Assembly (NCBI GenBank): GCA_022841915.1
Contig: JALHQN010000003.1
Span: forward strand, 1-64,000
Length of the DNA stretch: 64,000 bases
Origin: Burkholderiales bacterium
GTDB taxonomy: Bacteria > Pseudomonadota > Gammaproteobacteria > Burkholderiales > WYBJ01
Direction: 5' to 3'
Shown piece after piece: positions 21,901-57,826 of the stretch; position 1 is the stretch's first letter; the number at the start of each line of letters is the position of its first letter. Both the position numbers and the translations under genes were made by a program. The notes under the pieces were generated by a model that worked only from the letters and a program-made list of their open reading frames with translations, ran no database searches and had not been told where the DNA came from.

Positions 21901-21939
21901 CTCCAGCTTTTGAGCTGGACTCTGGGAACGCGGACGAGC

Positions 21940-22530
21940 ATGAGCGATAAAGAGCTGGATCGAAGCAAGCGCGGGTTTCTCGTGGCGACATCTGTCGTGG
22001 GTGGCGTAGCCACTGTCGGCGTTGCGGCGCCGTTCGTAGCAAGCATGTTCCCCTCCGAGCGGGCGAAGGCGATGGGGGCGCCGGTAGCGGTCGATGTAGG
22101 GCAACTGGCTCCCGGGGAGATGATCCGGGTCGAGTGGCGCGGGAAGCCGGTCTGGGTTGTCCGCCGAACCAAGGAAATGCTCGAATCGATCCAGAAGTCC
22201 GAAGACAAGGTCACCGATCCGAAGCTGGAGATCGATCAGCAGCCCGAGTACGCCAAGAACGAAAGCCGCTCGATCAAGCCGGAAATTCTGGTGCTCGTGG
22301 GTGTTTGCACACATCTCGGATGCTCACCGCAATTCAAGCCCAAAGAAGTCTCTCCCGAGATGGGAGAGGACTGGGTGGGCGGCTTCTACTGCCCGTGCCA
22401 CGGCTCCAAATTCGATTTCGCCGGCAGGGTTTACAAGGGCGCGCCGGCGCCAACGAATCTCGTCGTGCCGCCCCACACATATTTGGCCGAGTCGACCATC
22501 CTCATCGGCGAAGACAACAAGGGAGCGTGA
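21940..22530 (+). CDS. petA: ubiquinol-cytochrome c reductase Rieske subunit
   Basis: 196-residue Rieske [2Fe-2S] protein of the bc1 complex. Cluster motifs CTHLGC and CPCHGS are intact. The N-terminal membrane anchor is preceded by RSKRGFL, a Tat-like signal with Lys-Arg instead of Arg-Arg. The ATG at 21940 starts an operon with petB (3-base gap) and petC. It takes electrons from ubiquinol and passes them to cytochrome c1. Confidence 0.96.
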   Translation: MSDKELDRSKRGFLVATSVVGGVATVGVAAPFVASMFPSERAKAMGAPVAVDVGQLAPGEMIRVEWRGKPVWVVRRTKEMLESIQKSEDKVTDPKLEIDQQPEYAKNESRSIKPEILVLVGVCTHLGCSPQFKPKEVSPEMGEDWVGGFYCPCHGSKFDFAGRVYKGAPAPTNLVVPPHTYLAESTILIGEDNKGA

Positions 22531-22533
22531 GCG

Positions 22534-23847
22534 ATGGCTGCAGTCGATAAACAGCCGGTGACGGGCGCAGGGCCTTTCAACGGCGTACTCACTTGGGTAG
22601 ATGCGCGTTTCCCGCTCATCTCGCTGTGGCGGGATCATCTTGCCGACTACTACGCGCCCAAGAATTTCAACTTCTGGTACTACTTCGGTTCACTCGCACT
22701 GCTGGTCTTGGTCATTCAGATCCTGACCGGCATTTTCTTGACGATGAACTACAAGCCGGACGCCGCCCAGGCGTTCGCGTCGGTCGAGTACATCATGCGG
22801 GACGTGCCTGGTGGCTGGATCATCCGCTACATGCACTCGACAGGCGCCTCCATGTTCTTCGTGGTGGTGTATCTGCATATGTTCCGCGGGATCATGTATG
22901 GCTCGTATCGCAAGCCGCGCGAACTGCTGTGGATTTTCGGCTGCCTCATCTACCTCGTCATGATGGCCGAGGCGTTCCTCGGATACCTGCTGCCCTGGGG
23001 TCAGATGTCGTACTGGGGCGCGCAAGTCATCGTCAACCTGTTCGCTGCGGTGCCGATCATCGGGGAAGACTTGTCCATCTGGATTCGCGGCGACTACGTC
23101 GTCTCGGATGCGACGCTGAATCGCTTCTTCGCCCTCCATGTGATCGCTGTGCCGCTTGCACTGCTGTTGCTCGTGATGCTGCATCTGATTTCGCTGCATG
23201 AGGTCGGCTCGAACAATCCCGATGGCGTCGAGGTCAAGAAACGTCTCGATCCCAAGACGAACAAGCCGGTGGATGGCATTCCGTTCCATCCTTACTACAC
23301 GGTCAAAGACATCTTCGGCGTTTCGGTCTTCCTCCTCGTCTTCTGCGCCATCATGTTCTTCGCGCCGACCATGGGCGGCTATTTCCTCGAGTACAACAAT
23401 TTCGTGCCGGCCAATCCGATGCAGACGCCGGAACACATCGCACCCGTCTGGTATTTCACCCCCTACTACTCGATTCTGCGGGCGGTTCCGCCCTTGTTCG
23501 GATCGCAGTTCTGGGGCGTGGCTGCGATGGGCGGTGCAGTGATGATCCTGTTCTTGATGCCCTGGCTGGATCGCAGCCCCGTCAAGTCCATTCGCTACAA
23601 AGGGACATTGTTCAAAAGCTGGCTCGCTGCCTTCGTCATCACCTTCATCATCCTGGGTTATCTCGGCACCAAGCCGACGACGGTTTGGGGGCAATTCGGT
23701 TTCCAGACGTTCTTCATGGACACACGGGACGTAGCGACCTGGGTTGCCCGACTCGGCACCCTGATCTACTTTCTGTTCTTCCTGCTGATGCCATGGTATT
23801 CCCGCCGGGACAAATGCAAACAAGAGCCGGAAAGGGTGACGCACTAA
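22534..23847 (+). CDS. petB: cytochrome b of the bc1 complex
   Basis: 437-residue membrane protein with about eight helices. Heme-b histidine pairs are in RYMHSTGAS / VVYLHMF and FALHVIAVP / VMLHLISLH. The Qo-site motif reads PVWY, where the classic form is PEWY; PVWY is known from proteobacteria. Normal length for the full-length (not split) proteobacterial form. Confidence 0.97.
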   Translation: MAAVDKQPVTGAGPFNGVLTWVDARFPLISLWRDHLADYYAPKNFNFWYYFGSLALLVLVIQILTGIFLTMNYKPDAAQAFASVEYIMRDVPGGWIIRYMHSTGASMFFVVVYLHMFRGIMYGSYRKPRELLWIFGCLIYLVMMAEAFLGYLLPWGQMSYWGAQVIVNLFAAVPIIGEDLSIWIRGDYVVSDATLNRFFALHVIAVPLALLLLVMLHLISLHEVGSNNPDGVEVKKRLDPKTNKPVDGIPFHPYYTVKDIFGVSVFLLVFCAIMFFAPTMGGYFLEYNNFVPANPMQTPEHIAPVWYFTPYYSILRAVPPLFGSQFWGVAAMGGAVMILFLMPWLDRSPVKSIRYKGTLFKSWLAAFVITFIILGYLGTKPTTVWGQFGFQTFFMDTRDVATWVARLGTLIYFLFFLLMPWYSRRDKCKQEPERVTH

Positions 23848-23848
23848 A

Positions 23849-24577
23849 ATGAGAACCTTGCTTGCCGTACTTCTTCTGGCTCCGGCGCTCGCACTGGCGG
23901 CATCGGCTGGCATCAAGCTCGACCGGGCGCCGGTCGACTTGAACGATAACCCCTCCCTGCAGCGGGGAGCCCAGGTTTTCGTCAATTACTGCTTGAGTTG
24001 CCATAGCGCGAACTACATGCGCTACAACCGTTTGCAGGATCTCGGTCTCACCGAACAGCAAATCAAGGACAACTTGATGTTGGCGGGGGAGAAGGTGGGC
24101 GACACCATGACCATCGCCATGAGAGCCAAGGATGGCGCAGAGTGGTTCGGTGCTGCGCCGCCCGACCTGACGGTCATCGCGCGCTCCCGCGGTGCCGATT
24201 GGCTGTACACGTTCATGCGCACCTTCTACCAAGACCCGGCGCGGGCGACGGGCTGGAACAACCTCGCGTTCCCGAGCGTAGGTATGCCCCATGTTCTCTA
24301 TGAATTGCAGGGCACTCAGGTCTTGAACGTCGTAACCGCCACGGATGCGCTTGGCCATCAGGTCGAATCGCGCACGCTGGCGCTGGCGGCGCCTGGAAAG
24401 ATGGACAAGATTCAATACGACCAACTCGTGGGCGATCTCGTCAATTACCTGGTCTACATGGGCGAGCCGTCGGCAAAATCGCGGGTTCAGATCGGTCTGT
24501 ATGTCATGATCTTCTTGCTGATCCTGATTCTCGTGACCTGGTTGCTGAAGCGCGCCTATTGGAAGGACCTGCACTGA
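23849..24577 (+). CDS. petC: cytochrome c1
   Basis: 242 residues: signal peptide (1-20), covalent heme motif CLSCH at residues 48-52, probable Met ligand in SVGMPHV, and a C-terminal membrane anchor before WKDLH. It completes the petABC operon, one base after petB. It accepts electrons from the Rieske centre and reduces cytochrome c in the periplasm. Confidence 0.97.
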   Translation: MRTLLAVLLLAPALALAASAGIKLDRAPVDLNDNPSLQRGAQVFVNYCLSCHSANYMRYNRLQDLGLTEQQIKDNLMLAGEKVGDTMTIAMRAKDGAEWFGAAPPDLTVIARSRGADWLYTFMRTFYQDPARATGWNNLAFPSVGMPHVLYELQGTQVLNVVTATDALGHQVESRTLALAAPGKMDKIQYDQLVGDLVNYLVYMGEPSAKSRVQIGLYVMIFLLILILVTWLLKRAYWKDLH

Positions 24578-42749: not shown

Positions 42750-42960
42750 TGCCGTGCTCCTCCTCATGATCGATCGCTTGACGGGCTCTTGCGCCGGGCT
42801 GTCGTGAATCATCGTGCATCCCGTGTCGCTGCGGCCATTATGCGACATCCCGAGCCGGTCGCCGCATGTTCGTGAGTCGGGCTGTGCTGGTCGAACGCCC
42901 TTGCGCCCGGGCATACTCGGACACCCGGTCGATCCCGGGTCTGCCAAGGAGGAGTGCCCC

Positions 42961-44310
42961 ATGACCGCGATCACGCGTACGCTGGCCCGTTATGTCGTCG
43001 AATCCCGTTTCGATGCACTGCCGGGTGCAGTCCAGCACGAGGGCCTGCGAGCCTTCACCAACTTCATCGGGTGTGCCGCAGGCGCTTCACGCGAGGACGT
43101 CGTGGAGCGCATGATCTCGCTGCTCGCCGAGTACAACGGCGGCCCGCACGCCACAGTGATCGGACGGCCCGAACGCCTGGATGCGCTCAATGCGGCGCTC
43201 GTCAACTCGCTGGGCTCGAGCGCCCTGGCCTTCAACGATACCCATTACGTGACCGTCGCTCACCCGACCAGCCCGGTGGCCGCTGCAGCGCTGGCGCTGG
43301 CAGAGCGCCAGCCGGTCAGCGGCAAGGCGCTCATACATGCGGTCGTTCTGGGGGTGGAACTGCAATGTCGGGTCGGCATGATCTTGAGCGTGCCGCCCGC
43401 GGAAGCCTCGGTCGGGCTGTCCATGCAGGGTCTGGTGGGCGGGGTGGGCGCAGCGGTGGCGGCTGCGAAGCTGCTGGAACTCGACGAAGATGGCGTCTGT
43501 CGCGCCATCGGCCATGCGATCAACCAGATCGGCGGCTTGCGCGAGGCGCATGGCAGCATGGGCAGTCCCTACACGCCCGGGCATGCGGCGCGATGCGGAC
43601 TGTTCGCTGCTTTGCTCGCGCAGCGCGGTGTGACCATCTCCGACGCGATGATCGAGGGGGTCAAGGGGTTCGCAGTGACTTACGCCCAACACGCACAGCC
43701 GCACGCTGCCGTCGAGAAGCTGGGCGAGTCGTTCGAGATCTTGTCGCTGGCATACAAGCCTTACCCCTCGGGCTTCGTGACGCATCCGGTCATCGATGCT
43801 TGCCTCGATGTGGCGCGACGCGAGCGCTACGACCCGGCCTCGATCGAGCGGGTGGAACTCGTGGTCAATCCGCTTACCCTGCATTTGTGCAACCGGCCCG
43901 AGCCCAAGGATCGGGCCCAGGCCATGGTGAGCTTTCAGCACTGGGCGGCGGTTTCGCTGCTGTTCAAGGCCGCCGGCGTGGCGCAGGTCACGCAAGCCAT
44001 GGTGGACGATCCGACGATCGCTGCACTGCGCCGCAAGGTGCTGGCCGTCGGGCGCGACGACATGGGCCGGGAAGCGGCGGAGGTGCGTGTCCTCTTGCAG
44101 GGGGGGCGGATGCTGGCCGCTCGCGTAGAGCACTGCATCGGCAGTGCGGGGATGCCGATCTCGGACGAAGACATCACGCGCAAGACCTACGGCCAGCTGC
44201 AGACAGCCTATGCCGATTCGATGTGCGAGCGCATCGTCGACCAATGTTGGCAGATGCCGGATGCGCCGCGCGCCGATGCGCTGTGTGCGCTATTGCAGCA
44301 GGTCAGCTGA
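42961..44310 (+). CDS. MmgE/PrpD family protein
   Basis: 449 residues of the family that includes 2-methylcitrate dehydratase PrpD and cis-aconitate decarboxylase. Seen: ALVNSLGSSALAFNDTHYVTVAHPTSPV (in parts: LAFNDTHY, AHPTSPV), GSMGSPYTPGHAARCGL and KPYPSGFVTHP. GGAGG before the ATG. Without prpB/prpC neighbours the substrate is open; a hydroxy or unsaturated dicarboxylate is likely. Confidence 0.87.
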   Translation: MTAITRTLARYVVESRFDALPGAVQHEGLRAFTNFIGCAAGASREDVVERMISLLAEYNGGPHATVIGRPERLDALNAALVNSLGSSALAFNDTHYVTVAHPTSPVAAAALALAERQPVSGKALIHAVVLGVELQCRVGMILSVPPAEASVGLSMQGLVGGVGAAVAAAKLLELDEDGVCRAIGHAINQIGGLREAHGSMGSPYTPGHAARCGLFAALLAQRGVTISDAMIEGVKGFAVTYAQHAQPHAAVEKLGESFEILSLAYKPYPSGFVTHPVIDACLDVARRERYDPASIERVELVVNPLTLHLCNRPEPKDRAQAMVSFQHWAAVSLLFKAAGVAQVTQAMVDDPTIAALRRKVLAVGRDDMGREAAEVRVLLQGGRMLAARVEHCIGSAGMPISDEDITRKTYGQLQTAYADSMCERIVDQCWQMPDAPRADALCALLQQVS

Positions 44311-47269: not shown

Positions 47270-48244
47270 ATGCATATTCTTCGACAGGCGCCCTTGTGCG
47301 CAGTCGGCATGGCGATCGCACTTGCATGCGGAACGGTCAGTGCGGCTTCGGCTGAATACCCGACGCGTTCGTTACGCTACGTCGTGGCATTCGGTCCCGG
47401 AGGTCTCAACGATGTGGTGGGGCGCGTTTTCTGCCAGAAGCTGAGCGAGGCTTGGGGCCAGCCCGTCATCGTGGACAACCGTCCGGGAGCGGGTGGCAAT
47501 GTCGGTGCCGAGCTCGTCGCGCGTTCGAACCCGGACGGTTACACGATGCTCAGCATCAGCACGGCGCACGCCATCGCGCAAACCTTGTACCGCAAGCTCA
47601 ACTACAACCTGGAGCGGGATCTGATCCCCGTGGCGACGCTCGGCTCGGCGCCGCTGATTACGGTGGTCCATCCGAGTCTGCCGGTGAAGAGCCTCGCCGA
47701 GATGGTGAGTCACGCTCGAGCCAATCGCCTTGCCTACGGCTCGGGCGGCGTCGGCGTGATCAGTCATCTTTCGATGGAGATGTTCAAGCAGGCTGCCCGT
47801 TTCGACGCCACCCACGTGCCTTATAAAGGCGGCGGGCCGGCGCTCGTCGACCTGCTTTCGGGCCAGGTGCAATTGCATACCAACGACATCGGGCTGGTGC
47901 TGCCCAACGTGCGCGCGGGCAAGCTGCGGGCGGTCGGGATGATGACCGAGCAGCGTCACCCGCTGCAGCTCGAGGTGCCGACCTACATCGAACAGGGCCA
48001 CAAGGATTTTGTCATGGGCAACTGGATCGGTGTCGTCGCCCCGGTTGGCACGCCGCGTGCCGCGATCGGCAAGCTCTCGGCCGAGTTCGGGCGCATCGCC
48101 AAGGAGCCTGACGTGGTGAAGCTTTTTGCCAATCAGGGATTCGATACCACGGGGCTCGCTTCCGGCCCGTCCGCCGAACTCATCAAGAATGAGGTGGCCC
48201 GCTTCGGGGCGGCGGTGAAGGCGTCGGGCGCCAAGGTGGACTGA
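47270..48244 (+). CDS. Bug/TctC family binding protein
   Basis: 324 residues: signal peptide to about residue 26, then YPTRSLRYVVAFGPGGLNDVV, VIVDNRPGAGGNVG, NPDGYTMLS and HVPYKGGGPALVD. Position 175 bases before the CoA-transferase-like genes suggests it feeds that pathway (inference). Confidence 0.9.
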   Translation: MHILRQAPLCAVGMAIALACGTVSAASAEYPTRSLRYVVAFGPGGLNDVVGRVFCQKLSEAWGQPVIVDNRPGAGGNVGAELVARSNPDGYTMLSISTAHAIAQTLYRKLNYNLERDLIPVATLGSAPLITVVHPSLPVKSLAEMVSHARANRLAYGSGGVGVISHLSMEMFKQAARFDATHVPYKGGGPALVDLLSGQVQLHTNDIGLVLPNVRAGKLRAVGMMTEQRHPLQLEVPTYIEQGHKDFVMGNWIGVVAPVGTPRAAIGKLSAEFGRIAKEPDVVKLFANQGFDTTGLASGPSAELIKNEVARFGAAVKASGAKVD

Positions 48245-48419: not shown

Positions 48420-49298
48420 ATGAGAGACAAGCTCGTTTCGTTGCCCGAAGCCGCTGCCCGTGTGGCGAGCGGCAACCAGATCGTGATGAGCGCGACCATG
48501 CAGCGCCCGCCGATGGCATTGTTGCGCGAACTCGTCCGGCGGGGCGTGAACGATTTGCGGCTCATCGGCGTCACCACCGGCGACATCAATTTCGATTTTC
48601 TCGTCGGCGCAGGCGCGGCGAGCGTCATCGATACCTGTGCGGTGACCTTGGGTGAATTCGCCCGGACCGGACCGAATTTCGCGCGTCTTGCGATGGCCGG
48701 ACGAATACGCGCCCTCGACAACACGTGAGGGGTGATCTATTCACAGGCCCAGGCTGGGTCTATGGGAGTGCCCTACGTGCCGGTGATGGGTTTGGTCGGA
48801 ACCGATCTGCTTGCCCGCCGCGACGACATGGTCATGTCGCCGGATCCGTTCGGCAGCGGGAAATCCACGGTCGTGGCCAAGGCGATGCGACCGGACATCG
48901 CAGTCTTTCATGTCGAGAAGGCCGATCGCTACGGCAACGTGTCTTGCGGCTATCCAGTGGAGGCCGTGGTGCTCTCGGAAGCGGCGACGCATGTCATCGT
49001 CACTGCCGAGACCATTGTCGATCGATTGACGGAGAAGGAGGCGGTCGGATGCTTCGTGCCCGCCATCCTGGTCGACAGCGTGGTACATGCGCCCTTCGGC
49101 GCGCATCCGGGCGCCATGACCAGTTGCTACGGTATCGACAAGGCGCACATGACGCGCTACGCGGCGGCGGCGAAGGACGAAGCGTCGTTCGCCGAGTATG
49201 TCAAGTCGTGCGTCTTCGATGTGGCCGGTCACGAGCAATACGTCGAGCGCTTCGTGCCGCGTGAATGGCGCGAGGCCGCGCGCAGCCGGGTCGCCTGA
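48420..49298 (+). pseudogene. CoA-transferase family I alpha subunit, interrupted by in-frame TGA
   Basis: Two segments in one frame, 102 residues (48420-48728) and about 188 (from a GTG at 48732), separated only by a TGA at 48726-48728 plus GGG. Joined, they give a normal GctA-like alpha subunit (N-terminal LPEAAARVASGNQIVMS; later YVPVMGLVGTDLLAR and VFHVEKADRYGNVS). No frameshift is needed, so a single-base nonsense change, an error in the sequence, or translation of two parts are the options. Downstream operon genes look intact. Confidence 0.7.
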
Positions 49299-49325
49299 GC
49301 GCGGCCGTCGAAAGGAAACGACACG

Positions 49326-50063
49326 ATGACGGCTCTCGCCTACAACGATTCGGAATACATCGCCATCCTGATGTCGCGCGAGGTGCGCGACGGCGAAGTA
49401 TCCGCCTGTGGTGCGTTGTCGCAGATTCCCGCGGCTGCGTTGCTGCTGGCGCAGGCAACCCATGCCCCGAATGCCGAAATCATTCTGCTCAACACCGTGT
49501 TCAGGCCCTTCGGTACCTCGCGGCAGTTCCATTTTCTATGCCAGCGCGGAGAGCTGGGCTTGTTCTTCTTGAGCGGGGTGCAGATCGACCGCCATGCCAA
49601 CTACAATCTGCACCAGCTCGGCCCGGACAAGCAACATCCGACGGCGCGGTTTCCCGGCGGCTATGGCGGCGGCATGATCTACTACATGGCCAAGCGCACC
49701 ATATTGTTTCGCACCGAGCACACGCGCCGGACCTTCGTCGAGCGCGTGGACTACATCTCCTCGGCGGGAAGTTCGCCGCCCGACACGATCCGCGGCGGGC
49801 ATCCGCACCAGGTCATCACGCCCAAAGCCGTATTCGGTTTCGACCGGGCCGCGGGCATTTTGCGGCTGCAGTCCGTCCATAGCCCTTACACGCTGGACGA
49901 TATCCGCGAAAACACGGGCTTCGATCTCGGTGTGGACGGTGCCGTGGATACCACGCCTGTGCCCACTCAGGAGGAGTTGCGCGTGCTGCGCGAAGTGGTG
50001 CGACCGAAGATGATATCGACGGGCACCTACGGCGCGTGGGCGGAGAAGACGATCGGCGTTTGA
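49326..50063 (+). CDS. CoA-transferase-like beta subunit
   Basis: 245 residues, the pair of the preceding alpha subunit (27-base gap). Where family I transferases carry the catalytic Glu of an ESG/ENG motif (after a block like HAPNAEIIL), this protein has LNTVF with Asn at residue 56. That loss is known from IpdAB, which hydrolyses a ring instead of moving CoA. So the pair may be a hydrolase or lyase acting on a CoA ester; this is inference. Confidence 0.75.
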   Translation: MTALAYNDSEYIAILMSREVRDGEVSACGALSQIPAAALLLAQATHAPNAEIILLNTVFRPFGTSRQFHFLCQRGELGLFFLSGVQIDRHANYNLHQLGPDKQHPTARFPGGYGGGMIYYMAKRTILFRTEHTRRTFVERVDYISSAGSSPPDTIRGGHPHQVITPKAVFGFDRAAGILRLQSVHSPYTLDDIRENTGFDLGVDGAVDTTPVPTQEELRVLREVVRPKMISTGTYGAWAEKTIGV

Positions 50064-52725: not shown

Positions 52726-53682
52726 CTAGCGCTGGGCGTCCTCGGCGCGGTAGCCGATCGCGCCTTCGTATTTGGCGCTGACTTCTTCCGCGGGCAGAAA
52801 CGCTTTCTCCAGGGCGAGCACCTCGGGGAAGCCGACGAAGGTGTGCAAGTCGCCGGCAGGATGGTGCTTGGTGCGCGCGGCGAAATCGAGCAGGAACGCG
52901 GCGTCTTCGCGAGCGAATTCGTGCATGTAGTCCCACATGCCGATGGCCGACGATCGCAGGGCGCCGGTGGCATTGCTCACCATGGCGATGCCGATCTGGT
53001 CCAGCCGCGCGAGCGGTACTCGCGGCGATACGCCGGTGCGATTGAAATGCAGCGGGCCGCGAATCTCGCGCGCACAGCGCTCGAGTTCGGCTTCCGAGGT
53101 CAGCGCCTCGGGAAAAATCATGTCGGCGCCGGCATCGATGTAGGCGTTCGCCCGATCGATGAGATCGTCGATGCTGCCGCCGGCGACGCCGCGCGCATCG
53201 CACCGGGCGATCAGGACGAAATCGGGATCGAGTTCGCGTCGCACCCGGTCGGCCGCACGCAGCTTGCCGACCATTTCGTCGCACGGGATCACCTGCTTGC
53301 CGGCGACGTGGCCGCAGCGCTTGGGCGCGACCTGGTCTTCGATGTGGATGGCAGCGACGCCGGCGCCGATGAAGTCTTCCACCGTGCGCAGAACATTGAT
53401 CGCGTTGCCATAGCCGGTGTCCGCGTCGGCGATGACGGGAATTCGCACCGCCTGGGCGATGTAGCGGGAGACCATGACCATTTCCGAGGCAGTGATCAAT
53501 CCCACATCGGGTTTGCCGAGTAGCGATACCGAGACGCCGTAGCCCGTCACCCCGCAGCAGTGAAAACCGGCCTGCTCGATGATGCGCGCCGCCAGTGCGT
53601 TATGAGCGCCGGGTTTGACGAGCGTGCGTTTCTCGGCGAGCAGTTGGCGCAATCGGGTGGAGCCCTTGATTCGTGTCGTCAC
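52726..53682 (-). CDS. isocitrate lyase/PEP mutase family lyase 1
   Basis: 318 residues with the superfamily barrel. Metal-binding DADTGYGN (about 87-94), and the catalytic loop KRCGH (121-125) with Cys, as in 2-methylisocitrate lyase. GTG at 53682 is preferred, with GGAG upstream; an ATG at 53751 would add an unrelated leader. Convergent with the acyl-CoA synthetase and divergent from a paralogue. Confidence 0.85.
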   Translation of the reverse strand: MTTRIKGSTRLRQLLAEKRTLVKPGAHNALAARIIEQAGFHCCGVTGYGVSVSLLGKPDVGLITASEMVMVSRYIAQAVRIPVIADADTGYGNAINVLRTVEDFIGAGVAAIHIEDQVAPKRCGHVAGKQVIPCDEMVGKLRAADRVRRELDPDFVLIARCDARGVAGGSIDDLIDRANAYIDAGADMIFPEALTSEAELERCAREIRGPLHFNRTGVSPRVPLARLDQIGIAMVSNATGALRSSAIGMWDYMHEFAREDAAFLLDFAARTKHHPAGDLHTFVGFPEVLALEKAFLPAEEVSAKYEGAIGYRAEDAQR

Positions 53683-53914
53683 GGCCGCGTTCTCCGGCGA
53701 AGATTCGATGCGGCATTGTAGTCGGCCTGATCTCGTGACGGGTTGGTGCATGGCCTGGACTGGATGGCTTCAATCACGCGTTCGTCGAGGGCACGATCGG
53801 CATCGTCGGCATGCGCACGTGCGTTCCATCTTGCCGGTGCGATTTGCCGGCAACACGCGCTTCGCCGAGTCAACGGGCGCGGGTATGATTCGGGATCCAT
53901 CGAGGAGAAAGATC

Positions 53915-54808
53915 ATGGCGAGCAAAGGTGCTGAACTCGAGGCGTTGATCCAGGCGCCCGAGATCGTGATCACGCCGGGCGTGTACGACGGTTATTCGGC
54001 GCGTCTGGTGGAGAAGGCCGGATTCCGGACGGCCACGATTTCCGGTGCCGGCGCATCCGAGAGCCGCATGGGCTGGGCCGATCGGGGCATCCTCGGCTTC
54101 GAGCAGAACCTCGACAACGCCCGGCGCATCGCCGACTGCTGCGATCTGTTGCTTCAAGCCGATGCCGACACCGGCTACGGCAACGCGATGAACGTGTATT
54201 TCGTGACGCGCGCCTTCGAGAAGGCAGGCATGGCCGCGATCATGATCGAGGATCAGGTCTGGCCCAAGCGCTGTGGGCACATGAAGGGCAAGCAGGTCAT
54301 TGCGGCCGAGGAAATGGTGCAGAAGGTCCGTGCCGCGGTCGATGCGCGTCAGGACAAGCACTTCGTGATCAAGGCGCGCACCGATGCAGCGGGTCCGCTG
54401 GGGTTGGAGGAGGCGATTCATCGCCTGAACCTGTACGCCGAGGCCGGCGCCGATTGTCTGTTCGCCGATGCGCTGCTCGACGCCGAATCCATCGCCAAGG
54501 TGGCCAAGAGCGTGCCCAAGCCCTTGTCGGTGAACATGGGGCTCGGCATTCGGGCCCGGCCCACGACGCCGTTGATGACGCCGAAGCAGCTGCAGGAGAT
54601 CGGCGTGGCGCAGATCTCCTACCCGCGCCTGCTGTCCACCGCCGCGTTGATGGGCATGACGAAGGCCATGCAGGTATTCAAGGAGGAGTACGTCGGCCAG
54701 AACAAGGTCGTCGATCGGCCCGACTTGCAGGTGAGCTTCGATGAGTTGAACGATCTCATGGGGATGGATTTCCTCGACGAAATCGAACAGCGCTACACCG
54801 GCGGCTGA
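53915..54808 (+). CDS. isocitrate lyase/PEP mutase family lyase 2
   Basis: 297 residues. DADTGYGN at 83-90 and KRCGH at 118-122; the loop continues MKGK, not the RPNK of PrpB. The family makes or breaks C-C or C-P bonds in malate-like acids. GAGGAG precedes the ATG, and a LeuCD-like hydratase follows after only 27 bases, so the two act in sequence most likely. Candidates include dimethylmalate or citramalate cleavage. Confidence 0.87.
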   Translation: MASKGAELEALIQAPEIVITPGVYDGYSARLVEKAGFRTATISGAGASESRMGWADRGILGFEQNLDNARRIADCCDLLLQADADTGYGNAMNVYFVTRAFEKAGMAAIMIEDQVWPKRCGHMKGKQVIAAEEMVQKVRAAVDARQDKHFVIKARTDAAGPLGLEEAIHRLNLYAEAGADCLFADALLDAESIAKVAKSVPKPLSVNMGLGIRARPTTPLMTPKQLQEIGVAQISYPRLLSTAALMGMTKAMQVFKEEYVGQNKVVDRPDLQVSFDELNDLMGMDFLDEIEQRYTGG

Positions 54809-54835
54809 TCGCAACGGCGAAGCAAGGGCGGCAAC

Positions 54836-56089
54836 ATGGGCATGACCATCGCAGAAAAGATCCTGGCGCGTGCGAGCGGACGCGAGCGCGTGGCGGCTGG
54901 CGATCTCGTCACCGTGCAAGTCCATACCACGGTGTTGTTCGACAACAACTTCATGCCGAACAACTGGCCCGATGTGCGCCGCATCGATCATCCCGACCGG
55001 GTCGTCGTCATTCTCGATCACCGTGTGCCGGCGCCGACGATCCAGGCTGCGGGCGCGCATGTGACCGCGCGCAAGTTCGTGGAGCGGTTCGGCATCGAGC
55101 GCTTCCACGATGTCGGTCAGCGGCAGGGCATCTGCCATCAGGTGGTCGCCGACGAGGCCTATGCTTTGCCGGGAACGATTTTGGTCTGCAGCGATTCGCA
55201 TACCTGCAGCGCCGGTGCGCTCAACTGCGTGGCGCGCGGCGTCGGCGGTCCTGACGTCTTTTTCGCGGCGTGCAAGGGCGAGACGTGGTTCCGCGTCGGC
55301 TCGACCGTGCGCTATGAACTGCGCGGCCACCTGCGCCCGGGTGTGACGGCCAAAGACATCTTCCTGCATATTGCGGGGCTTTACGGCGCGCACGCCACCC
55401 AGAACATCGAGTTCGGCGGGCCCGCGCTGGCCGGTTTGTCGATATCCGCCCGCAAGACGCTTGCGACCATGGGCGCCGAACTGTCGTGCGAATTCGCAAC
55501 CTTCGAATGCGACGATCTGCTGCTCGACTACCTGCGCTCCCGCACGAGCGCGGCATTCGAGCCTCAGCACCCGGACGCGGATGCGGACTACGCCGAGGTC
55601 CGCGTGATCGACCTCGACACGCTCGAACCGCTGGTGGCCTTGCCGGACAGCGTCGTTAACAATTCTCGCCCCTTGTCCGAGGTGGCGGGCACCACGATCG
55701 ACCAGGCCTTCATCGGTTCGTGTGCGAACGGCACGCTGGAAGATCTGCACCTGGCCGCGCGGGTGTTGACGGGGCGGCAGGTATCGCCGAAAGTGCGCCT
55801 GATCGTCACCCCGGGATCGCAGCGGGTGTATCTAGAGGCGGCCCGCGACGGTACCCTGGCGCAACTGGTCGAATCGGGTGCGCTCGTCACGAATCCGACC
55901 TGCGGTGCATGCGGAGGCGGCCATATGGGCGTGCTCGGTCCTGAAGAGACTTGCATCACCGCCAGTACGCGCAACTTCAAGGGGCGCATGGGTGATCCAA
56001 GCTCGCGTGTATTCATGGGTTCGCCGGCCACGGTGGCGGCATCCGCATTGGCGGGTGTGATTGCCGATCCGCGTCGATACCTGCCATAG
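54836..56089 (+). CDS. 3-isopropylmalate dehydratase-like large subunit
   Basis: 417-residue aconitase-superfamily protein of the short LeuC/homoaconitase type. 4Fe-4S ligands: GSCANGTLEDL and NPTCGACGGGHMGV. N-terminal SDSHTCSAGALN holds substrate residues. It is tightly linked to a PEP mutase-family lyase upstream and the small subunit 11 bases downstream, with no leuB. That argues for a catabolic hydratase (as in dimethylmaleate hydratase) over leucine synthesis. ATG 54842 is an alternative start. Confidence 0.87.
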   Translation: MGMTIAEKILARASGRERVAAGDLVTVQVHTTVLFDNNFMPNNWPDVRRIDHPDRVVVILDHRVPAPTIQAAGAHVTARKFVERFGIERFHDVGQRQGICHQVVADEAYALPGTILVCSDSHTCSAGALNCVARGVGGPDVFFAACKGETWFRVGSTVRYELRGHLRPGVTAKDIFLHIAGLYGAHATQNIEFGGPALAGLSISARKTLATMGAELSCEFATFECDDLLLDYLRSRTSAAFEPQHPDADADYAEVRVIDLDTLEPLVALPDSVVNNSRPLSEVAGTTIDQAFIGSCANGTLEDLHLAARVLTGRQVSPKVRLIVTPGSQRVYLEAARDGTLAQLVESGALVTNPTCGACGGGHMGVLGPEETCITASTRNFKGRMGDPSSRVFMGSPATVAASALAGVIADPRRYLP

Positions 56090-56100
56090 GAGAAACGCTC

Positions 56101-56607
56101 ATGCGTTTCAGCGCCCGTACCTGGAAAGCTGGCGACAACATCAACACCGATTTGATCCTGCCCAATCGTGCCTTCTACCTCACGCCCCAGGAACAGACCC
56201 AGTTCGTGTTCTCCGCCAATCGTCCCGGATGGAGCGATCTGGTCGTGAAGGGGGATATTCTCATCGGGGGGCATAATTTCGGCATGGGATCGAGCCGGCC
56301 GGCGGCGAGGTCGCTGCGCAATCTCGGGCTCGCCTGTCTGGTCGCGGAATCGATCAACGGGCTCTTCTTCCGAAATTGCGTGAATTTCGCGTTTCCGGCC
56401 ATGGAATGCCCGGGCGTTGCCGCCGCCTTCGTAGAAGGCGATGTTGCGGAGGTTTCGTTCGAGGATGCCACGATCGTGAACCGGCGCACCGGCGTGCGGC
56501 TCCTGGGTAAATCCATGCCGGCGGAATTGCGCGCGGTGGTTGCAGCGGGCGGGCTGTTCCCGTTGCTGGAGCAGCAGGGTTACATCGCTTCGCGCGCGAG
56601 CGCGTGA
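56101..56607 (+). CDS. 3-isopropylmalate dehydratase-like small subunit
   Basis: 168-residue swivel domain partner of the large subunit. Block [16 protein letters not shown] at 57-72 corresponds to the substrate loop; leucine enzymes usually read GCGSSREHA, so the Cys is Met and Glu is Pro here. The N-terminal [13 protein letters not shown] is normal. The changes fit a different substrate. Confidence 0.87.
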
Positions 56608-56692
56608 GCGTGGCGGAGGATCGCATGCAGAAACTTCGCCCGCTTCGCGGGGTCAGCCTTGCTTTTACGTTCATTCACCCACATATCGAAGC

Positions 56693-57826
56693 ATGAACAT
56701 GAGTGCATCCGAGCGTTTCAGCGTTGACTTCTGCCGTCACGACTCCACGGTGGCACGCGCTTGGGCGCGCGCACCGATCGAGCCGACGCCTGACGAGCGG
56801 CACGAACTCAAGGAGCGTATCCGGCGCTTGTTGCGCGAGCAGGATGCCACTTTGCTCGCGCACTATTACGTCCATCCAGATCTCCAGGATCTGGCCGAGG
56901 AGACTGGCGGCTGCGTGGCCGATTCGCTCGAGATGGCCCGCTTCGGCCATGCCCAGACTTCCCGTACACTGGTCATCTGCGGCGTGCGTTTCATGGGCGA
57001 GACGGCCAAGATCCTCAATCCGGAAAAGCGCGTGCTGATGCCCGACCTGGAAGCGACCTGCTCCCTGGACCTGGGCTGTTCGGCGCAGGAATTCGTCCCC
57101 TTCTGCGATGCGCATCCCGATCGAACGGTCGTCGTGTACGCGAATACGAGTGTCGAAGTCAAAGCGCGAGCCGACTGGGTCGTCACTTCGGCCGTCGGGC
57201 TGGAGATCGTGCGCGAGCTCCATGCACGCGGAGAAAAGTTGTTGTGGGCGCCCGATCGGCATCTGGGCAACTACATCCAGCGCGAGACCGGCGCGGACAT
57301 GCTGATCTGGCAAGGCGCCTGCGTGGTCCATGACGAATTCAAGGGCGCGGAACTCGAAGCGCTGATGCGCAGTCACCCGCAGGCGAAGGTGCTGGTGCAT
57401 CCGGAGTCGCCGGCAGCCGTGATCGGCATCGCGGACGTGGTCGGCTCCACCAGCCAGCTCATTCGCGCCAGTCGCGAGCTGGACAGCGATGAGTTCATCG
57501 TCGCGACCGACGGTGGCATCATCCACCAGATGCGCAAGCTCTCGCCGCACAAGCGCTTCATCGAAGCGCCGACGGCGGGCAACGGCGCCACGTGCAAGAG
57601 TTGCGCCCATTGCCCCTGGATGGCCATGAACGGACTGAAGAATCTTGCGCAGGTGCTGGAGAACGGCCGCAACGAAGTGCATATCGATCTGGATGCGGGA
57701 GCCAAGGCCTTGAAGGGCATCCAGCGCATGCTCGATTTCGCGCAGTCTCGCAAGGCCGCCGTTGCGGCACCTCCTGCGGTGAAGGACTACGGTACGACGT
57801 ATGCTCATGGGATGGGGCCTGCCTGA
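56693..57826 (+). CDS. nadA: quinolinate synthase NadA
   Basis: NAD biosynthesis enzyme making quinolinate from iminoaspartate and dihydroxyacetone phosphate with a [4Fe-4S] cluster. 377 residues. Cluster cysteines: C123 (EATCSLD), C210 ([11 protein letters not shown]) and the CKSCAHC block at 301-307. [10 protein letters not shown] at 56-65 is typical. A second ATG at 56699 is possible. nadB/nadC are not adjacent. Confidence 0.96.

Follow-up and report, generated by a model that had tools for sequence, protein, structure and literature searches.

A putative hydratase-lyase operon of LeuC/LeuD-like subunits and a PEP-mutase-family lyase in a Burkholderiales genome, distinct from leucine synthesis

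The window is the whole stretch of DNA that was analysed (64,000 nucleotides). The genes and regions relevant to the operon at 53915-56607 were as follows:

53915-54808, + strand: lyase of the PEP-mutase/isocitrate-lyase (ICL) superfamily (PF13714 PEP_mutase, 175 bits), proposed to cleave a substituted malate
54836-56089, + strand: LeuC-like large subunit, a [4Fe-4S] hydro-lyase (PF00330), proposed hydratase
56101-56607, + strand: LeuD-like small (swivel-domain) subunit (PF00694), with GSSRPAA replacing GSSRE
52726-53751, - strand: second PEP-mutase/ICL-family lyase, named lyaseB (PF13714, 175.1 bits), divergent from the operon
53752-53914, no strand: divergent intergenic region between lyaseB and the lyase, 163 bases between start codons
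50587-52713, + strand: NDP-forming acyl-CoA synthetase (ATP-grasp_5, Succ_CoA_lig and CoA-binding)
47270-48244, + strand: Bug/TctC periplasmic carboxylate receptor (PF03401, 230.7 bits)
42814-44310: MmgE/PrpD gene, family confirmed
48420-50063: CoA-transferase-like genes, family confirmed

The lyase and LeuC genes were separated by 27 bases (54809-54835) and the LeuC and LeuD genes by 11 bases (56090-56100); at the latter junction the LeuC stop codon runs into TAGGAGAAACGCTCATG (read directly), which suggests a ribosome-binding site for LeuD. An earlier note on this DNA had given these coordinates and gaps correctly, together with the lyase, LeuC-like and LeuD-like families (on which Pfam and NCBIfam agree) and the position of SSRPAA in the small subunit; a LeuD of the same genome reads GSSREHA. 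The note had overlooked lyaseB, which is divergently oriented 163 bases upstream of the first lyase, and the region between the two lyase genes (53752-53914) probably has a promoter role. The one putative hydratase of the window and a second, different lyase would have this divergent promoter region in common.

The MmgE/PrpD, Bug, NDP-forming synthetase and CoA-transferase-like genes reported nearby in the earlier note were all confirmed. The catabolic module that it had proposed was supported for the hydratase-lyase pair but probably does not include the CoA-transferase-like genes: no matches to these were found near the unit in relatives, and one subunit (48420-49298, + strand) has a frame that is open except for one in-frame TGA (48726-48728), which points to a possible pseudogene or sequence error. 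The CoA-transferase-like genes were rejected as unit members on both grounds, and so was the downstream nadA (frame of the open reading frame at 56540-57826), no ortholog of which stands beside the unit in the clustered loci. Genes of the bc1 complex were recognised by eye at about 21910-24577, and the host of the operon appears to respire.

The large subunit scored over the curated NCBIfam subfamily cut-offs of hacA_fam, IPMI_arch and PRK00402 (NF001614, TIGR01343, TIGR02086), and stayed below those of the leuC equivalog (184.9 bits, cut-off 560.25) and the LEU2 equivalog (364.4 bits, cut-off 610.65). The small subunit did not reach the leuD equivalog (25.6 bits, cut-off 116.25) and narrowly missed the LeuD/DmdB subfamily TIGR02087 (103.3 bits, cut-off 108.95). 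The same genome carries seven LeuC-like loci and ten PEP-mutase-family hits, as well as a canonical leuC-leuD-leuB set on another contig (C1), of which all three members were over their curated cut-offs (783.9, 272 and 500 bits). The absence of leuB, stated in the earlier note, is thus true locally but not of the genome. In an IQ-TREE tree of LeuC, where some long-branch joins are unsure and the operon's clade is firm, this clade (25 rows, support 100/99) stood apart from the four bacterial-type LeuC proteins of the genome. Clustering with true LeuCD in a genome with no second leuCD, which the earlier note had named as contrary to its reading, was not found, the separate leuCDB being on C1.

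Other LeuC/LeuD-like loci of the genome were also noted. A pair on contig C7 (L092:9586-11484) has the cluster cysteines, has lost GSSR (GMGPKMNG) and the RNF motif, and lies on a very long tree branch; it possibly has a new function. Two contigs carry modules parallel to the operon: contig C10 (L093) has an MmgE/PrpD-like gene, two PEP-mutase-family lyases, Bug, an acyl-CoA synthetase and a bacterial-type LeuCD, and on contig C9 (L091) an archaeal-type LeuCD is accompanied by Bug and an MmgE/PrpD-like gene.

No close homolog of characterised function was found for the unit. The closest solved relatives of both subunits belong to the isopropylmalate/citramalate isomerase of M. jannaschii (LeuC, 4nqy, 338 bits; LeuD, 3vba, 128 bits), and M. 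jannaschii LeuC has been reported with maleate hydratase activity (PMC8307300). In a clade alignment with the M. jannaschii isopropylmalate isomerase (IPMI) and with HACN, the operon's LeuC kept the DH and DSH motifs, the three cluster cysteines and both arginines of RNFxGR; the cluster cysteines, the catalytic Ser-x-Arg and the Asp-His pairs are those of an aconitase-superfamily [4Fe-4S] hydro-lyase. On the substrate side, SNRNF has become STRNF and GSCTNG has become GSCANG across the clade, and the HDxT motif reads [FY]DNNF in most members. GSSR[PA] takes the place of GSSRE in nearly all LeuD proteins of the clade (GSSRP in the operon's copy), with departures within the SSR motif at two loci (L054 and L076). 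GSSRE is a highly conserved motif of the small subunit of IPMI and of aconitases related to it, and a nearby recognition region sets specificity (PMC7308503); this region is RAFYL in the operon's LeuD, against RYLVY (IPMI) and PYLRT (homoaconitase) in the M. jannaschii enzymes. Judged by these alignments, the active site of LeuCD is a re-tooled one, in which the predicted catalytic residues are intact and the substrate-side residues changed. The operon differs from the M. jannaschii isomerase in these three motifs (GSSR[PA], STRNF and the [FY]DNNF type in place of HDxTx), in its adjacent lyase and in having no leuB. Homoaconitase was rejected as an identity, since the NCBIfam equivalogs were not reached and the YLRT loop is absent.

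The first lyase kept S45, D58, D85, D87, E115, C123-G-H and N210 (E. coli PrpB numbering), and its Mg and catalytic residues were conserved in 17/17 orthologs. Residues D83, D85, C120, G121, H122 and R155 (own numbering) were invariant, R155 being the equivalent of R158 in methylisocitrate lyase, the enzyme in which the roles of D58, E115, C123 and the arginine are discussed (PMC7609661). The fold, the Mg-binding Asp residues and the KxCGH general-acid loop place it in the PEP mutase/isocitrate lyase superfamily. The positions of PrpB R241 and R270 are occupied by T/A and F in all 17 orthologs, and by Y and F in the petal death protein; E188 is D in all 17. The family also has a conserved 4-residue insertion after N210 bearing two basic residues (R-x-R/K), which could bind a carboxylate and so offset the loss of R241 and R270. 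In PrpB these two arginines presumably hold the third (distal) carboxylate of methylisocitrate. If this role is right, both partner enzymes lack what the binding of a third carboxylate should require, and the substrate is therefore probably a dicarboxylate rather than a tricarboxylate, in keeping with the term used in the earlier note.

Against the curated prpB profile, the lyase scored 227.6 bits (cut-off 354.4). Its nearest solved relative by profile was the petal death protein (293.9 bits), the others scoring 267 and below and the Aspergillus dimethylmalate lyase (3fa3) 242.4. The AlphaFold2 model of the lyase (pLDDT 91.5) also matched the petal death protein (1zlp) best, with Z 37.0, rmsd 1.7 and 37% identity over 282 aligned residues; oxaloacetate acetylhydrolase, methylisocitrate lyase and dimethylmalate lyase came within about 1 Z, and the modelled fold does not tell the first two of these and the petal death protein apart. 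The shared loss of R241 and R270 adds to this likeness, but the petal death protein is a plant protein, and the operon's lyase has the insertion after N210 and E188D.

Among 399 genomes of the order, LeuD orthologs (65-71% identity; own copy 100%) were found in 12, and lyase orthologs (69-79%, with 69% as the lower limit; own copy 100%) in precisely these 12 genomes and no others. LyaseB orthologs (73-76%) were present in six of the 399, own genome included, and these six all belong to the 12 LeuCD-bearing genomes. When 84,980 species genomes were scanned, LeuD orthologs (55-70%) turned up 25 times, in MAGs of Beta- and Alphaproteobacteria and in Bosea, some of these loci being the same records as genomes of the order set; LeuCD of this clade is carried, for example, by Bosea sp. 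Root381 (L079). In 22 of the 23 loci having enough flank, LeuCD had a lyase-family gene no more than 3.5 kb away, a count which, like those that follow, is drawn from related genomes. The order was lyase-LeuC-LeuD in 14 betaproteobacterial loci (in two of them, L062 and L068, with other genes between the members), and lyaseB-LeuC-LeuD in five alphaproteobacterial loci, with lyaseB directly upstream in place of the first lyase; the lyase followed LeuD in three. The divergent lyase/lyaseB pair, about 90-150 bases apart, was seen again at G048, G091, G232, G271, G375, L060 and L066. LyaseB keeps R241 (PrpB numbering), and is proposed to act in some species as the partner lyase of LeuCD. The gene order, whose recurrence the earlier note had wished to see checked, does recur: the lyase, LeuC and LeuD are a real unit, in an arrangement beyond chance that is found across genomes and families. 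In genomes of the same genus the unit was not found (best match only 36-42%), and a relative of it is carried by a plasmid of Ancylobacter, next to transposase genes of the IS21 and Mu types; together these observations suggest horizontal movement of the unit.

The neighbours of the unit were compared between loci. Copies of the acyl-CoA synthetase (59-60% identical) lie upstream of the lyase-LeuCD unit in L059 and L061, where acyl-CoA dehydrogenase and SDR genes follow them, and the NDP-forming synthetase is possibly an accessory gene that activates the acid product. Nearly every betaproteobacterial copy of the unit is flanked by Bug genes, but these are also present in most other examined stretches of the own genome; because they are abundant in these genomes, their adjacency is weak evidence for an uptake role, and the Bug/TctC receptor is a possible uptake component. 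Genes for BhcC-like and 2-hydroxy-3-oxopropionate-reductase-like proteins, well below curated cut-offs, occur downstream in several loci. Among more distant relatives of the unit, MmgE/PrpD immediately precedes LeuC-LeuD-lyase in L064 and is close by in L090, the genes LeuC-LeuD-MmgE-PrpF-lyase are consecutive on a plasmid of Streptantibioticus (S. cattleyicolor), and L132 reads TcuA-lyase-LeuC-PrpF-TcuA-AcnA-like-MmgE, with a lyase paralog 53% identical to that of the window. In this last locus (L132:7921-14954, genome G098), the two TcuA tricarballylate-dehydrogenase genes that flank the lyase, LeuC and PrpF were over the curated cut-off. PrpF-family isomerases, which include 2-methylaconitate isomerase, are neighbours of relatives of the unit at two loci, L100 and L132; none was recognised within the 64,000-nt window, and the own genome has three on other contigs. 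Methylitaconate isomerase (Mii) of nicotinate fermentation is also a member of the PrpF family (PMC4720413). From these contexts, the unit may be part of a wider kit for several acids, in which an isomerase or dehydratase is followed by a hydratase and then by a lyase.

On the sequence comparisons, the three genes are a predicted catabolic unit of known enzyme families, distinct from leucine synthesis. The hydratase-then-lyase pair proposed in the earlier note is supported by the tree, the HMM cut-offs, the perfect lyase/LeuCD co-occurrence and the active-site changes, and we consider that the unit probably acts in two steps. The LeuC/LeuD-like heterodimer, an iron-sulfur hydro-lyase, would convert a substituted maleate-type dicarboxylic acid into a 3-substituted malate by hydration of its double bond. 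The adjacent lyase (lyaseB in some species) would then cleave this malate between C2 and C3 in a Mg-dependent retro-Claisen reaction, and the products would be a simple monocarboxylic acid and a 2-oxo acid, either pyruvate or glyoxylate. It is plausible that the Bug receptor also imports the starting acid and that the neighbouring acyl-CoA synthetase activates the released one. We infer the direction of the reaction, the class of the substrate and the products; LeuCD could alternatively be an isomerase that feeds another step. More tentatively, the unit may represent an undescribed catabolic route of Alpha- and Betaproteobacteria, in which the distinct GSSR[PA]/STRNF clade of the aconitase superfamily would hydrate a substituted maleate from the environment that is a substrate of no known member, and the two interchangeable lyases would allow a choice of products.

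Several other readings were weighed against this two-step dicarboxylate unit. Relatives of the unit are found in the company of PrpF, TcuA and MmgE/PrpD, handlers of aconitate-like tricarboxylates, which counts against a dicarboxylate, and LeuCD might instead hydrate a dehydrated citrate-like acid (an alkylcitrate, tricarballylate or aconitate analogue), with the lyase then cleaving the product. The 2-methylcitrate branch (PrpD, AcnD, PrpF, PrpB) is the model for this reading: there, too, an aconitase-superfamily hydratase feeds a lyase of this family, and MmgE/PrpD and PrpF are also carried by relatives of the unit. The L064, L090, L132 and S. cattleyicolor loci and the R241 of lyaseB speak for such a tricarboxylate, but the main lyase is without R241, R270 and E188 in 17/17 orthologs and is below the prpB cut-off, LeuD has no counterpart of the homoaconitase YLRT arginine, the operon encodes a LeuCD-type heterodimer and not AcnD, and neither TcuA nor PrpF was seen in the loci nearest to the window's copy; we regard this reading as unlikely. 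Equivalence to the dimethylmaleate hydratase and 2,3-dimethylmalate lyase of E. barkeri, giving propionate and pyruvate, is a special case of the preferred two-step reading, and one that we judge distinctly unlikely. In the nicotinate fermentation of that organism, the DmdAB hydratase is followed by 2,3-dimethylmalate lyase; as compared by description only, the two systems have the same enzyme families (a LeuCD-family hydratase, then a PEP-mutase/ICL-superfamily lyase) in the same logical order. The petal death protein, nearest to the lyase, acts on 2,3-dimethylmalate-type acids, and relatives in L100 and L132 have isomerases of the family of Mii; yet methylitaconate isomerase and methyleneglutarate mutase were not recognised beside the operon, no PrpF gene was recognised in the window, the lyase is nearer to the petal death protein than to the Aspergillus dimethylmalate lyase (293.9 against 242.4 bits) and the score of the small subunit falls short of the LeuD/DmdB threshold. 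Dimethylmaleate is one candidate substrate among several, favoured by none of the tests made.

Degradation of 2-/3-isopropylmalate-type acids, in which LeuCD would turn a 2-alkylmalate into a 3-alkylmalate and the lyase would release glyoxylate and a branched acid (isovalerate) to be activated and oxidised, fits LeuCD chemistry, the acyl-CoA synthetase, acyl-CoA dehydrogenase and SDR genes of L059 and L061, and the downstream BhcC-like and reductase-like genes, whose families belong to glyoxylate metabolism. It is nonetheless very unlikely in our estimation: those downstream proteins are well below curated cut-offs, the GSSRE of known isopropylmalate isomerases (PMC7308503) is altered, and no such pathway appeared in the literature searched. 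Family membership and similarity to archaeal-type IPMI speak for an isopropylmalate isomerase of leucine biosynthesis that happens to lie next to an unrelated gene; the subunits are far below the leuC/leuD cut-offs (184.9 against 560 bits for leuC), a genuine leuCDB is encoded elsewhere, the clade is far from LeuC and the lyase co-occurs perfectly, and this role was rejected as extremely improbable. The literature on dimethylmaleate hydratase, LeuCD-lyase-Bug modules and isopropylmalate degradation was searched, with most subscription papers outside the search, and no such operon was found.

Genes of this kind are filed under leucine biosynthesis as '3-isopropylmalate dehydratase' and as generic 'isocitrate lyase/PEP mutase', for example in Ancylobacter, and the copies would form a separate catabolic unit with a patchy distribution, in one case plasmid-borne near insertion sequences. 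Identification of the substrate would correct these annotations, show a carbon source of uncultured soil and water bacteria and add a specificity to the aconitase superfamily; the lyase-LeuCD set is small and testable in vitro. Lyase paralogs were also observed beside Amidohydro_2 and Bug genes without LeuCD (L135:8009-9825 and L131:8549-10328, which share 71% and 53% identity, respectively, with the lyase of the operon). The Amidohydro_2-like protein of L058 is nearest, below the cut-off, to 4-sulfomuconolactone hydrolase, and the Amidohydro_2 neighbours of the lyase paralogs hint at lactone-derived substrates.
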